31,848 nucleotides of DNA from a virus. Positions 1,883-25,963 of this stretch are shown piece after piece; positions within the stretch are counted from its first letter, which is position 1, and each line of letters opens with the position of its first letter. The position numbers and the translations under genes are program-made. Below the pieces are notes generated by a model. That model was not told the origin of the DNA. It saw only the letters and a list, made by a program, of their open reading frames with translations, and did not search any database. The stretch covers positions 1-31,848 of the IMG/VR virus record IMGVR_UViG_3300047319_001248; one strand, written 5' to 3'.

Positions 1883-3919
1883 CTAAAGCTTAATGAACAT
1901 ATTATAAAATGCACCGGGCTGTGAAACATTAAATGGAATACTGCTTCCGCTAGTATCAGTTATTGCATTTGCAGCGCCAGTCATTCCATCGCTTTGAGCT
2001 GCAGGAAAACTAACCCCAGGAACACTATATGTTGTAAAAGTATGAGTATGTCCAGCTAGCTCAGGTATCAATTGAGTATGAGCATATTCTCCAGTTATCA
2101 TGCCGCTTAAGGAAAGAATTATGGTTTGAGTTCCAGTTCCAGCGCTTGAAAATGCAATCAAATTGGTAGAACTTCCGCCTGTTGAAAATGCTCCACTTGA
2201 AGACATTGAGTTAGCGAAAGATGTAGTTACATAAAATTGCGTATTTGAAATCATTGTAGAAACATAATAAATTGTATTTATACTGAGATTTCCTGGAAGA
2301 CCACCACCACTATTCGTCACATAAAATGGCATCCCATTATAGACATTCATGGGATTAGCTGCCGTTATAAGGAGTTTAGCTCCAGTACCACTTGAAGCCG
2401 CAAATGTTGTTTTATTTGGGCTTAGTAATGCTGCAAAAGGAACATTACCTAGCATTACCCTTCCTAGCATCGATGTTAATGAAATAGCTTTATTTGCATT
2501 CCAATCGGAGATTGCACTGGTACCATAATTGGTGGGGGCTCCAGCGCTTGTGAAAATTGTAACAATTGGATTTGAATTAGCGCCTGTATCAAATAATTTA
2601 AATGAGTTCCAAATTAAATTAAACAATGGCCATGCATCAATGCTTGCTCGCGTTGATCCATTTGATAATGAGTTTCCTATAAGACCATTATTCATTGGAA
2701 CCCATCCAAAATAATAAAAACTATTTAGACTTGTTCTTACGTCGCCTGTTCTTGGGCTATTAATAATAGCGTCTACTTGATCGTAGGTTTGAAAATCATT
2801 TACAGGAACTAGTTCATTTTCAGTTAAATAGATGCTTGGTTTTGTGAAATTAATGCTGCAACCTGCCGAAGCATTTAATGGCATTTGCACCTGTAGATAA
2901 AGGCCATCATCAGCGCCATTCCCCAGAATTAGCCCAGAAGTTGATGGAAATATGCCACTTGCTGTGTAGGTGGTCCAAGTATTATTCAAAGTAATTGTTT
3001 TTAATGCAGGCCCTACGGCAACAGGCGTTCCCCCTGTTCCTGTATCTTGTAGGATATATATGCTAATAACATTGCCGCCGCCCGTTATAATACCGGATGA
3101 AGGGTCATTTTGCGCCTGAATGGATAAGCTAAATGATACATTTGCTAAAGTGTTTACATGTAATGATATTGGAAATTGATAGCATTTTTGAGTTTCACCA
3201 GAACCACCGGGCGATTGAGTTTGATGATTAATATAATACTCAGGAACAATGTTTCCATTAATTGGCTGTGAAGTGGATAGAGGAAAAGGGGTAAATGTTA
3301 CCTTATCTGTCGCAGTTAAATTGTTTTTAATAAACTGTATGTCAGGCATTCTAAAGCCATCGTGTTGGCTTGGGGCTACAATTGTACTATATGCAGGGCC
3401 ACTAGCTGGAACTGACATGTTATTTGAAACGCCATAAGTAAATATTGTATATGGCGTAATAGTTGTAGTATTTGGAGCGATATTTCTCCAAAATCCACTG
3501 TTAATCACAAGATTATTAAAGGTAGTAGTGCCGCTGTTGCTCCCGCCTCCAGAGCCTTCAAATGGGAAATTAGCCCGGGTGATTTGATTGGTTTGTGCAT
3601 GATTTACTATGGTGATGTAATAAGGGTCTGGTGTATTTTCATCCGTTTCTGACCATGGATAGAAAAATGGGATAGTATCAACGCCGTTAATATCACATAT
3701 GGTTCCTGCAGCACTTAATGTTAGCGGATTAGGTAGTGTAATGTAGGTATAATTTCCAGGTGTTCCAGACTGATAATACCAATTTTTTAGAGTCGTTCTA
3801 CTGTTGTCATGATAACAAGTGACAGTTCCTGCAGACATAGGCGTACCGTCTTTATCTACAAAACTATCTTGTAGAATTGCTGCTGCTACTAACTTATTTA
3901 CATTCCCTGTAAATGGCAT
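1883..3919 (-). CDS. Large tail fibre/spike protein with collar-like C-terminus (678 aa)
   Basis: Starts at ATG 3919-3917 behind AAAGGA. The N-terminal ~110 residues (MPFTGNVNKLVAAAILQDSF, FVDKDGTPMSAGTVTCYHDN) resemble the virion-binding head domains seen at the start of podovirus fibres. The middle ~450 residues are Thr/Ser/Asn/Gly-rich and beta-type. The C-terminus has AELAGHTHTF-like spacing (PELAGHTHTFTTYSVPG) and ends NVSQPGAFYNMFIKL, matching the general form of phage tail-collar or microcystin-dependent-protein ends, where an HTH-containing loop and a final aromatic-N-x-x-IKL strand recur. It follows the ejection genes, the place where P22 carries its tailspike. The receptor-binding role is inferred; no endoglycosidase motif was recognised. 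Confidence 0.8.
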   Translation of the reverse strand: MPFTGNVNKLVAAAILQDSFVDKDGTPMSAGTVTCYHDNSRTTLKNWYYQSGTPGNYTYITLPNPLTLSAAGTICDINGVDTIPFFYPWSETDENTPDPYYITIVNHAQTNQITRANFPFEGSGGGSNSGTTTFNNLVINSGFWRNIAPNTTTITPYTIFTYGVSNNMSVPASGPAYSTIVAPSQHDGFRMPDIQFIKNNLTATDKVTFTPFPLSTSQPINGNIVPEYYINHQTQSPGGSGETQKCYQFPISLHVNTLANVSFSLSIQAQNDPSSGIITGGGNVISIYILQDTGTGGTPVAVGPALKTITLNNTWTTYTASGIFPSTSGLILGNGADDGLYLQVQMPLNASAGCSINFTKPSIYLTENELVPVNDFQTYDQVDAIINSPRTGDVRTSLNSFYYFGWVPMNNGLIGNSLSNGSTRASIDAWPLFNLIWNSFKLFDTGANSNPIVTIFTSAGAPTNYGTSAISDWNANKAISLTSMLGRVMLGNVPFAALLSPNKTTFAASSGTGAKLLITAANPMNVYNGMPFYVTNSGGGLPGNLSINTIYYVSTMISNTQFYVTTSFANSMSSSGAFSTGGSSTNLIAFSSAGTGTQTIILSLSGMITGEYAHTQLIPELAGHTHTFTTYSVPGVSFPAAQSDGMTGAANAITDTSGSSIPFNVSQPGAFYNMFIKL

Positions 3920-7311: not shown

Positions 7312-7686
7312 TCATACGTACATAAAAGTTCGCCACATCGCCGTAACAATATTGGGTGGTGTGGCTCCATCATACGTTATTACAAACTGCTTAGAAACCC
7401 TATTATCTGTGTCAAAAACAGCCTGACCGCTTATATCTTGCAAATTATCTGGCAAAGGCACACCAATAAATGACGTATATCTGGATTGTATTAACGCAAT
7501 ATCAGCAGCACTCAAGTTCGGGAACAAAATGCCCTCATTTGAAAAATTCCTTTGTAACGCTTGAAACAATGAGGCAAACCCTAGGCTCCATAAAAACGAG
7601 AAGTTCCCATCGGAAGTGACTGCAGGTATTTCCCTGGGTAAATCAGGAAATAAGGATTGTGGATTATTTGGAGTAGAGCCCATCAT
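7312..7686 (-). CDS. Hypothetical virion protein in the gp14 position (124 aa)
   Basis: Starts at one of two adjacent ATGs (7686 or 7683); the first overlaps the gp10-like stop as ATGA. The protein contains NNPQSLFPDLPREIPAVTSD, a central helix (LGFASLFQALQRNFSNEG), and NLSAADIALIQSRYTSF, ending FVITYDGATPPNIVTAMWRT plus four residues. In P22 the gene between the tail-hub genes and gp7 is gp14 (135 aa), which assists the ejection proteins; length and position fit. I cannot see sequence evidence for homology, so this is a positional analogy. Confidence 0.65.
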   Translation of the reverse strand: MMGSTPNNPQSLFPDLPREIPAVTSDGNFSFLWSLGFASLFQALQRNFSNEGILFPNLSAADIALIQSRYTSFIGVPLPDNLQDISGQAVFDTDNRVSKQFVITYDGATPPNIVTAMWRTFMYV

Positions 7687-21782: not shown

Positions 21783-22013
21783 TTAAATCCAATGTACAGC
21801 TTTAGCTATAACGGTTAGTAACCCAACAAAACTAGATATTTGAAGACCCAGAAGCCAGAAAAATCTTGAGTCTATTTTATCGTCTATTTTGTCTATTTTT
21901 TTCTCAAAACGAATTAACGTTTCATTTATATGGCTTATAGACATCTCAAGTAAAGCCACTCTGGTATCAGTGCTATTTGGATAATCGGTTACATTATCTG
22001 TTTTTTTATTCAT
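21783..22013 (-). CDS. XhlA-like coiled-coil plus membrane-anchor protein (76 aa)
   Basis: Starts at ATG 22013 behind a strong GAGGAG, and ~20 bases after a TGTTATAAT extended -10. Residues 18-50 form a charged coiled coil (RVALLEMSISHINETLIRFE, KKIDKIDDKIDSRFF) and residues 52-76 a membrane segment (WLLGLQISSFVGLLTVIAKA). The layout matches XhlA-type haemolysin/holin helpers. It is the first gene of the candidate late operon. It shares architecture, not clear sequence, with the 64-residue protein at 9,377-9,571. A membrane role in lysis or in superinfection control would fit. Confidence 0.65.
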   Translation of the reverse strand: MNKKTDNVTDYPNSTDTRVALLEMSISHINETLIRFEKKIDKIDDKIDSRFFWLLGLQISSFVGLLTVIAKAVHWI

Positions 22014-22037: not shown

Positions 22038-22046
22038 ATTATAACA
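22038..22046 (-). promoter_or_regulatory. Extended -10 promoter for the late operon
   Basis: On the minus strand the bases read TGTTATAAT, an extended -10 (TG-N-TATAAT). No good -35 is present, which is usual for extended -10 promoters or for promoters that need an activator. Transcription would begin near 22,031 and reach the GAGGAG of the first gene at about 22,020. Confidence 0.5.
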
Positions 22047-22123
22047 CGTTTATATGCAATGTATATTAAGTGCTTGATATTTTTTAAATACATACCATTT
22101 TGTTGGCGTCAACATAGTGTTTA

Positions 22124-22139: not shown

Positions 22140-22191
22140 ATTACTATTTTGGGAGAGAACGGGAGAGAATGGACGTGTTATCGGGTAGGGT

Positions 22192-22340
22192 GACAATCGG
22201 CAGGAATTGCACCTGCTTTATGGTGCTCGTATCGTTCAAGAGCGCTTGTGGGCACCGACCGGCTCACCCCTCAGATTATTTCTAATCCCATCTTGTGACG
22301 CTTGGGGAATACGCGTTTCACTGTCAACGCCGCGATTGTC
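22192..22340 (-). ncRNA. Candidate structured RNA with tRNA-like acceptor/T-arm
   Basis: Between the early gene array and the late promoter. On the minus strand the 5' end (22340-22333, GACAATCG) pairs perfectly over eight bases with the 3' end (22199-22192, CGATTGTC). A 5-bp hairpin with seven-base loop (GCAGG-TGCAATT-CCTGC, 22216-22200) abuts the 3' strand with no gap, as a T-arm abuts an acceptor stem; the loop differs from the tRNA T-loop TTCRANY only at its second base. Further helices are GCGTT/AACGC (22330-22313), a GNRA hairpin GATTA-GAAA-TAATC (22287-22274), CCCC/GGGG around it, and GGTGC/GCACC (22256-22222). No normal anticodon arm can be drawn and the 3' end reads C-ACC. Role unknown; a terminator or attachment site is an alternative. 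Confidence 0.5.
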
Positions 22341-22344
22341 ATAA

Positions 22345-22506
22345 TTATTCTATGTCTTTTAGTTCTTCTGATTGTTGATCTCGAATTTCTGTAATTAATT
22401 CCTTTATTTTTTCTGCTGTTACTTTATATTTATTTTTTATCATAAATTCATAACATGCCTCGGTATAACTTAAAAGCTGCATCACCTGTTTTTCACTGAT
22501 TTTCAT
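22345..22506 (-). CDS. Small helical protein (53 aa)
   Basis: I use ATG 22506, which overlaps the upstream gene by 14 bases; an upstream start would overlap by ~95. The product MKISEKQVMQLLSYTEACYE, FMIKNKYKVTAEKIKELITE, IRDQQSEELKDIE is helical with an HTH-like central pattern. Last gene of the early array before the structured RNA. Not recognised. Confidence 0.6.
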   Translation of the reverse strand: MKISEKQVMQLLSYTEACYEFMIKNKYKVTAEKIKELITEIRDQQSEELKDIE

Positions 22507-22702
22507 CTTTAATTTCCTTATTGCAGTCTGGGCAAACTGTGATACCAAGTTTGGTATAACACTCTTTGTGCTCGCAATAGTTTTCAATCATGGATTGGAT
22601 TTTAAATAATAAATCTACATCCCTATCCCTATCTTTTTGTATCATTTCTTTCTGTAGATACCATCTTAGCCTTTCAAGCTCTTCTTTCGTGAAGTCATTC
22701 AT
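22493..22702 (-). CDS. MNDFTK-family protein 3 with Cys knuckle (69 aa)
   Basis: Start ATG 22702 shares a base with the preceding stop (TAATG). The N-terminus MNDFTKEELERLRWYLQKEM is homologous to two genes just upstream (MVNDFTKKELKKFL, MNDFTKDELLSLL). The C-terminus has ENYCEHKECYTKLG and VCPDCNKEIKDENQ: a CxxH...C...CxxC arrangement able to bind zinc. Third of three tandem paralogues. Function unknown. Confidence 0.65.
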   Translation of the reverse strand: MNDFTKEELERLRWYLQKEMIQKDRDRDVDLLFKIQSMIENYCEHKECYTKLGITVCPDCNKEIKDENQ

Positions 22703-25629: not shown

Positions 25630-25742
25630 GATAACCTCAGATAGAGCGCAGGCCAAGCCTTTGCTCAACTCCTTCCGCCATTGGTGGATGAGATAAGTGC
25701 GCCACTTAAGATAAGAACCACAGCGCAGCCTTATCTCTTTTT
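25625..25742 (+). ncRNA. Candidate plus-strand small RNA
   Basis: A series of hairpins on the plus strand: TATCTGA-TAACC-TCAGATA (25625-25643), AGGC-CAA-GCCT (25650-25660), CCGCC-ATT-GGTGG (about 25676-25687) and a long terminal stem ending in TTTTT (25690-25742). The series, ending in a rho-independent terminator, is the layout of a small RNA gene, partly antisense to the truncated gene copy. No promoter is clear. It might instead be a remnant of a mobile or replication element. Confidence 0.4.
25690..25742 (+). terminator. Rho-independent terminator, plus strand
   Basis: GAGATAAG-TGCGC (25690-25702) pairs with GCGCA-GC-CTTATCTC (25723-25737), 13 pairs with a two-base bulge, followed by five T. 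The loop itself holds CTTA-AGA-TAAG. Good form for a plus-strand terminator; the minus strand has no T run after the stem. Confidence 0.65.
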
Positions 25743-25743
25743 G

Positions 25744-25963
25744 CTAGCGAACGACTGTGGCGCAAGCCGTTTGTTTGGCGAGGACGTTATGTTCAGCAAT
25801 TCCAGAGGATATTATCCCCATCAGCTGTGTTGCCATTACCGTCCTCATAAATCTGGGAATGTCGTAACAAACCCGAGTACTCCTTCTACGCCATGGTAGA
25901 TGAGCTAAAAGTAACCCGCACGATTTGAGCTTGAAATAGGGTTCAGAGGCTTGGCGGGCTTAT
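25744..25963. other. Non-coding rod-like inverted repeat block
   Basis: No gene is supported. GTTTGTT (25769-25775) pairs with AACAAAC (25866-25872), GAGGACG (25780-25786) with CGTCCTC (25840-25846), and GGAT-ATT-ATCC (25808-25818) forms an apical hairpin. The element ACTCCTTC..GCCAT..GGT.GATGAG occurs twice, at 25,668 and 25,879, 211 bases apart, each around its own hairpin. Could be an RNA, an origin or an insertion footprint. Confidence 0.4.

Follow-up and report, generated by a model that had tools for sequence, protein, structure and literature searches.

A tRNA-like frame around a variable structured core in an undescribed family of phage RNAs

The tRNA-like structures of plant viruses, for example that of TYMV, combine mimicry of the D-loop/T-loop elbow with pseudoknots (PMC4810234). 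At the tRNA-mimic ends of long non-coding RNAs the tRNA fold recruits RNase P for end maturation, and the elbow of tRNA is recognized by RNase P as well as by RNase Z (PMC4810234). Engineered tRNA scaffolds use the tRNA fold for expressing foreign RNA (PMC3753655). GOLLD RNAs comprise a conserved 3' region and a less conserved 5' region, sometimes with tRNAs in the linker (PMC12286853).

The DNA analysed here, in the following denoted as the window, comprises positions 1-31,848 of the IMG/VR record IMGVR_UViG_3300047319_001248; L-numbers denote the other records compared. The window contains a block of 149 nt (22192-22340, minus strand) that is located between the stop of an upstream ORF (22345-22587) and the start of a downstream ORF (21783-22013), both on the minus strand. 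The RNA reads from 22340 to 22192 and hence in the direction of its flanking genes. In agreement with the original prediction, the block is non-coding, as judged by its context, and a promoter-like site lies downstream: the -10/-35-like site TATACA-16-TATAAT with a TG (22065-22038, minus strand) resembles a sequence in L003, where the RNA is absent. A perfect 9-nt inverted repeat (ATAACACGT/ACGTGTTAT, 22041-22049 and 22173-22181) surrounds the region between the RNA and this next promoter. A search of the block against Rfam (E-values up to 5) returned no match, consistent with the predicted tRNA-like hybrid that matches no known family, and blastn against GenBank phages and PLSDB plasmids returned none either. 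A literature search, with subscription papers and unposted work outside its scope, found no paper describing the family. The element belongs to an undescribed RNA family, a tRNA mimic, and this assignment is well supported even without the counter-defence role considered below. With z-scores of only about -1.3 (minus strand) to -1.75 (plus strand), the folding energy of the single sequence is unimpressive and not informative; the element is recognized by about 55 distinct homologues, their covariation and the structure of its subtype.

The constant frame of the RNA consists of an 8-bp acceptor stem, a 2-nt linker, a D-arm-like hairpin of 5 bp and a T-arm-like hairpin abutting the acceptor. In the window, the 5' strand of the acceptor (GACAATCG, 22333-22340, minus strand) pairs over all 8 bp with the 3' strand (CGATTGTC, 22199-22192, minus strand). 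Two nucleotides past the former, as in tRNA, follows the D-arm-like hairpin GCGTT-GACAGTGA-AACGC (22313-22330, minus strand), and the T-arm-like hairpin GCAGG-TGCAATT-CCTGC (22216-22200, minus strand) adjoins the latter with zero gap. The paired ends and the abutting 5-bp/7-nt hairpin had both been predicted and are indeed present, with covariation among the homologues as the decisive evidence. The geometry is that of a tRNA, including the linker and the zero gap, but the acceptor has 8 instead of 7 bp. Search models for tRNA do not respond: neither the tRNA covariance model (RF00005) nor ARAGORN calls a cloverleaf in the window, and both copies in L169 are left uncalled, whereas the tRNA lying between them is called.

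Homologues were collected by scanning IMG/VR with exact and degenerate patterns and from terminase relatives, with a structural filter, and nearly all of the distinct copies obtained reside in uncultured phage contigs, whose terminases differ. The pattern GACAATCGN{4,9}GACAGTGA and its version for genome contigs gave mostly chance matches. Among the genome contigs passing the structural scan the sole real copy, and the only one outside phage contigs, is found in L127. This contig is part of a Planctomycetota MAG; it carries a gene for a phage-type recombinase as well and might derive from a misbinned phage. Most records carry one copy of the frame, some carry two or three. Imperfect members were retained, namely L026 (no 5' acceptor strand), L208 (acceptor partly broken), L035 (one mismatch) and L200 (T-loop of 8 nt); L166, L168, L170, L176 and L198 were rejected by eye as chance matches to the T-arm, and L189, a canonical-looking tRNA followed by the 3' half of the frame, was dropped. 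The nearest terminases are approximately 30-40% identical to those of cultured phages of many hosts, and identification of the host by terminase failed. Terminase searches with two of the carriers (the window and L182) retrieve two different sets of cultured phages, from which it appears that the RNA moves from phage to phage.

Within 42 distinct frame sequences, 99.2% of the pair cells hold standard pairs, and 15 of the 18 frame pairs show two-sided changes (5 of 5 in the D-arm-like and 4 of 5 in the T-arm-like hairpin). The covariation score of the frame is 0.463; shuffles score 0.156 and slid partners 0.034-0.083. Because pairing is kept, changes are two-sided and the slid controls collapse, the frame is under structural selection; substitutions in related phages thus preserve the pairs, as the proposed check had asked, and we regard the reality of frame and family as virtually certain. 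Compensated variants of the acceptor in relatives include GGCAATCG, GGAATTAG, GAGACGCT, GTTAGCAG, GGTAATCG and GGAAGTCG, and complete acceptors are swapped in compensated form (GGAATTAG/CTAATTCC, GAGACGCT/AGCGTCTC and GTTAGCAG/CTGCTAAC). The T-loop reads TGCAAYT in all aligned copies but one, and TTCAATT occurs in one copy; its position 55 is a G in nearly all copies, unlike in normal tRNAs. The D-loop GACAGTGA is nearly invariant, with AAAGGAA, GAAGGAA, GTGAGA or GTTTTAG in a few copies, and L194 and L186 harbor an additional, apparently covarying hairpin within it.

The sequences bordering the frame are likewise constrained. The linker is CG in 49 of 56 copies. The 5' leader (ATTAT in the window, 22341-22345, minus strand) has the family consensus TTTAT, with T at -1 in 49, A at -2 in 51, T at -3 in 41 and T at -4 in 42 of 56 copies. 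Of 56 copies, 41 have an A immediately behind the 8-bp stem, and at the next position 28 have C and 26 have A; ACC follows the stem in 12 and an encoded CCA in 8 of 55 copies. In the window the 3' strand is followed by a discriminator-like ACC (22191-22189). Bacterial tRNA-Sec has an 8+5 arm, and the A followed by C or A, ACC or CCA fits such an arm followed by a discriminator. The predicted pairing of the 5' G with the discriminator, as in tRNA-His, is consequently not the favoured parse.

The ends of the RNA are conserved around cores that differ in length (46-162 nt) and sequence and are mostly unalignable between subtypes. An anticodon arm (5 bp/7 nt) is absent and the middle is a domain of pseudoknots and hairpins, the exception being L063, whose core is a degenerate tRNA (36 bits to the Rfam tRNA model over 119 nt). 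In the window, the first domain of the core (22267-22307, minus strand) is closed by a CCCC/GGGG helix, inside which lie a helix of 3 bp and, at 22287-22274, a hairpin with a GNRA loop (GAAA). Two-sided changes occur in 4 of 5 pairs of the GNRA stem, and in the outer helix L182 has one compensated pair. The second domain (22265-22222, minus strand) is an H-type pseudoknot with stems GAGC/GCTC (22265-22262 with 22243-22240) and GGTGC/GCACC (22256-22252 with 22226-22222); both stems show two-sided changes, with all cells paired in 4 phages. The original prediction described the remainder as four other helices that do not form a tRNA: its GNRA hairpin stands, the D-arm was missed, and the core contains an H-type pseudoknot. 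Across the subtype comprising the window, L181, L182 and L045, the 39-pair structure is formed in 100% of the cells, with 12 two-sided pairs, compared to 36-45% for slid versions (4 phages). A second subtype (L169a, L196, L197) has a different H-type pseudoknot with 4 two-sided pairs in stem 2 and one mismatch in stem 1, in L169a. By a simple and crude enumeration, H-type pseudoknots are stronger overall than those of shuffles (mean -16.3 versus -13.2), with at most 1 in 20 shuffles as good in 14 of 46 cores; by the same enumeration, the cores of L028, L042, L127 and L188 have no convincing H-type pseudoknot.

We note that core elements can occur without the frame and relatives without the RNA. 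The hairpin CTCTGGAATGGGTCG..AAGATGCC..ACTGAAACG of the L188 and L179 cores recurs in L184 on the other strand, where no frame surrounds it and its closing stem has changed, with compensation, from GTTAG/CTAAC to GATATC/GATATC. In L002, with a terminase of 93% identity, the upstream gene is present and ends in IENQQSEELKVIE, but no RNA follows it. Of 12 additional records scanned for the T-arm pattern, mostly terminase relatives, 11 lack it. The free hairpin of L184, the tRNA core of L063, the absence from L002 and the absence of the pattern in 11 of 12 records point to an exchangeable, accessory RNA. The structured module CTCTGGAATGGGTCGMAAGATGCCARACTGAAACG is found both free-standing (L184, 5100-5330, plus strand) and within the tRNA-like frame (L188, L179).

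The genomic neighbors of the RNA are tRNAs and units that end like tRNAs. Phage tRNA genes directly adjoin copies in L010, L014, L028, L063, L169 and L195, and other copies come after different structured units that end in an encoded NCCA, separated by GTTTAT. A CCA is located exactly 6 nt upstream of the element in 11 of 55 copies (0.5 expected), and units with an acceptor, NCCA and a TTTAT-type leader occur 23 times on the sense strand and not once on the antisense strand. The CCA spacing constitutes the best indirect evidence for handling by tRNA-maturation enzymes. The CCA-ended units of the arrays include GGCCGACGATAC...AAAATAGGCCACCA, GGGATGGAG...CATCCCACCA, GGGGAGAG...CTCTTCCCCTCCA and GAGTGGG...CCCCTCACCA, among others. 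The first of these is a separate RNA family with at least 16 units of 60-110 nt, a variable middle and compensated closing pairs (GGGC/GCCC in L195, GCCC/GGGC in L045), carried by L045, L181, L185, L187, L192, L194, L195, L196, L202 and others. The window itself contains a second structured unit of 71 nt (25776-25846, minus strand), which reads GAGGACG...CGTCCTCGCCA directly after TTTAT and has a 7-bp acceptor (GAGGACG/CGTCCTC) followed by GCCA; it is without an Rfam match and is resembled by a related 64-nt unit in L045.

Further recurrent sequences were observed in these phages. A CCA-ended family GGGATGGAG...TCATCCCACCA is present in L025 (approximately 7475-7598; with a T-arm-like CGGG-TGAAATT-CCCG), L038 (near 463) and L196 (approximately 3010-3130). 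The motif CTCATCYACC..GGNGGAAGGAGT(TGAGC), which has an apparently covarying hairpin, occurs in the window (25668-25697 and 25880-25905, minus strand) and in L006, L042 and L013, and in several phages lies near tRNA-framed or CCA-ended RNAs. The non-coding motif GGCAGTAATA...GGGTGAAAGCCC occurs in L010 (2599-2760), L014 (4320-4450), L016 and L171, in several cases near the terminase.

The constant frame, the largely exchangeable core and the arrays of tRNAs and CCA-ended units become visible only with homologues, and the original prediction was to that extent incomplete. The arrays favor processing by tRNA enzymes, and a pure decoy function of the frame is disfavored by the core, which is structured and variable. 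Our preferred, still tentative explanation is a phage non-coding RNA with a tRNA-mimic frame that is processed by host tRNA enzymes and presents an exchangeable structured cargo, possibly for counter-defence. The RNA would be transcribed together with neighboring genes or tRNAs. Judging from geometry, spacing and neighbors, RNase P would cut at the boundary between TTTAT and G, and the 3' end would be trimmed to A or CCA by RNase Z, exonucleases or the CCA enzyme. The tRNAs of the arrays are released by those enzymes, and presumably so are the CCA-ended RNAs. By means of the frame, host enzymes would excise a single stable RNA from a longer phage transcript and shield it, with the core presented as the cargo: a GNRA hairpin plus an H-type pseudoknot in the window, a varied or exchanged one in other phages. 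The cargo might then bind and neutralize host factors in trans, plausibly defence toxins that are controlled by RNA. The different parts of this explanation are not equally firm. Handling by tRNA enzymes, to which leader, spacing and CCA context point indirectly, is probable, although recognition by elbow-binding enzymes is not certain because position 55 of the T-loop is G, and the fact that only 8 of 55 copies encode CCA weakens the cargo model. That the active part is the cargo rather than the frame is slightly favored.

A clue to counter-defence is provided by a separate locus of the window. An abiF RNA (RF03085, Rfam match at 25958-25914, minus strand) occurs in 2 of 45 records, the window and L010 (1604-1656), and the gene for the Abi_2 protein in none of the 45, the window included; the abiF RNA of the window is possibly a phage-borne RNA antitoxin. 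RCd22, an abiF RNA, binds the AbiF toxin and neutralizes it in trans (PMC12373285), and phage PhiTE escapes ToxIN through an antitoxin-mimic RNA (PMC3475682). Given an abiF RNA without Abi_2 and these precedents, counter-defence by RNA is plausible for structured phage RNAs. For the tRNA-framed family they offer a hint, and such a role appears rather doubtful: no core matches a known antitoxin RNA in Rfam, and the abiF RNA is a separate locus present in only 2 of 45 records. An extended version, in which tRNA-mimic frames in tRNA-style arrays form a modular arsenal released by RNase P and RNase Z, each cargo disarming another defence, would be somewhat more speculative and is weakened by the single copy of the family in most phages.

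The frame might itself be the function, sequestering host proteins that bind tRNA (defence nucleases that cleave tRNA, EF-Tu, modification enzymes or the CCA enzyme) as a decoy or inhibitor, with the core as an insulating spacer that need only fold compactly and may drift. Conservation of the loops GACAGTGA and TGCAAYT by far exceeds that of the core, also where the stems are completely changed, and the G at position 55 would block pseudouridylation there, which might suit an inhibitor. Yet the cores covary within a subtype and are not drifting spacers, other CCA-ended units in the same arrays have quite different frames, and without an anticodon arm anticodon nucleases are not obvious targets, so that we consider a decoy unlikely. 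A mark acting in cis, whose tRNA-like fold attracts RNase P and RNase Z for cleavage of polycistronic phage mRNAs between genes and leaves the excised RNA as a by-product, would suit the TTTAT leader, the array spacing and the position of the copies between co-directional genes, many of them 8-50 nt ahead of the next start. It leaves unexplained the structured, covarying cores and the rows of several different units, and the relative L002 manages without the RNA after the same upstream gene; this reading is quite improbable.

Less probable again is an RNA that regulates host or phage mRNAs through base pairing with its variable core: cores do vary between phages and stable ends would suit an sRNA, but comparable cores keep a structure and not an unpaired stretch. 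A molecule linked to translation, aminoacylated and entering the ribosome like tRNA or tmRNA, would account for the geometry of acceptor, D-arm and T-arm, for the A and the partial CCA, and for pseudoknots as in tmRNA. The missing anticodon arm, the lack of a conserved tag frame and of any tRNA or tmRNA call, and the exchangeable acceptor sequence (GAGACGCT, GTTAGCAG), which argues against a single synthetase, make it very improbable. Ranked lowest, and hardly credible, is a DNA element such as a folded recombination or insertion site, to which inverted-repeat ends, presence and absence between relatives and an exchanged middle would correspond; against it stand the linker of 2 nt, the T-loop of 7 nt and the zero gap, exactly as in tRNA, and an orientation matching that of the tRNAs and CCA units, and no target duplication was noticed.

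If the preferred reading of a processed frame with cargo is correct, the family represents a new format for phage RNA weapons and adds several undescribed RNA families; the frame consensus together with the spacing of CCA and GTTTAT would then serve as a simple handle for mining such RNAs in phage genomes.

With respect to known systems, GOLLD and ROOL are likewise structured, phage-encoded RNAs near tRNA islands, but they are several hundred nt long with other folds, in contrast to the small tRNA-elbow frame described here, and their Rfam models do not match. Phage pseudo-ToxI and abiF antitoxin RNAs are structured and toxin-neutralizing, with phage mimicry known (PMC3475682), but have no tRNA frame; the core matches neither family, and abiF and type III antitoxin RNAs have no Rfam match within the element. 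Plant viral tRNA-like structures share the elbow mimicry and the pseudoknots, but are located at the 3' ends of RNA genomes and have a pseudoknotted acceptor, whereas the present family belongs to DNA phages and has a plain helical one. The 8-bp acceptor is shared with tRNA-Sec and with the 8+4 or 9+3 allo-tRNAs, unlike the missing anticodon arm, the G55 of the T-loop and the core in place of anticodon and variable arms. As in tmRNA (RF00023 and relatives), a tRNA-like acceptor and T-arm close a long non-tRNA interior with pseudoknots; the phage RNA differs by its length of approximately 100-215 nt, a D-arm-like hairpin with a fixed loop, no tag reading frame and an interior unconserved between phages, in line with the absence of a tmRNA model match, of conserved cores and of a common tag. 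Unlike the tRNA-mimic ends of long non-coding RNAs and the engineered scaffolds, it is a natural phage family in which frame and cargo evolve separately. If the host processes the frame as proposed, the family would be a natural phage counterpart of such scaffolds, in which a constant tRNA frame carries interchangeable RNA cargo.
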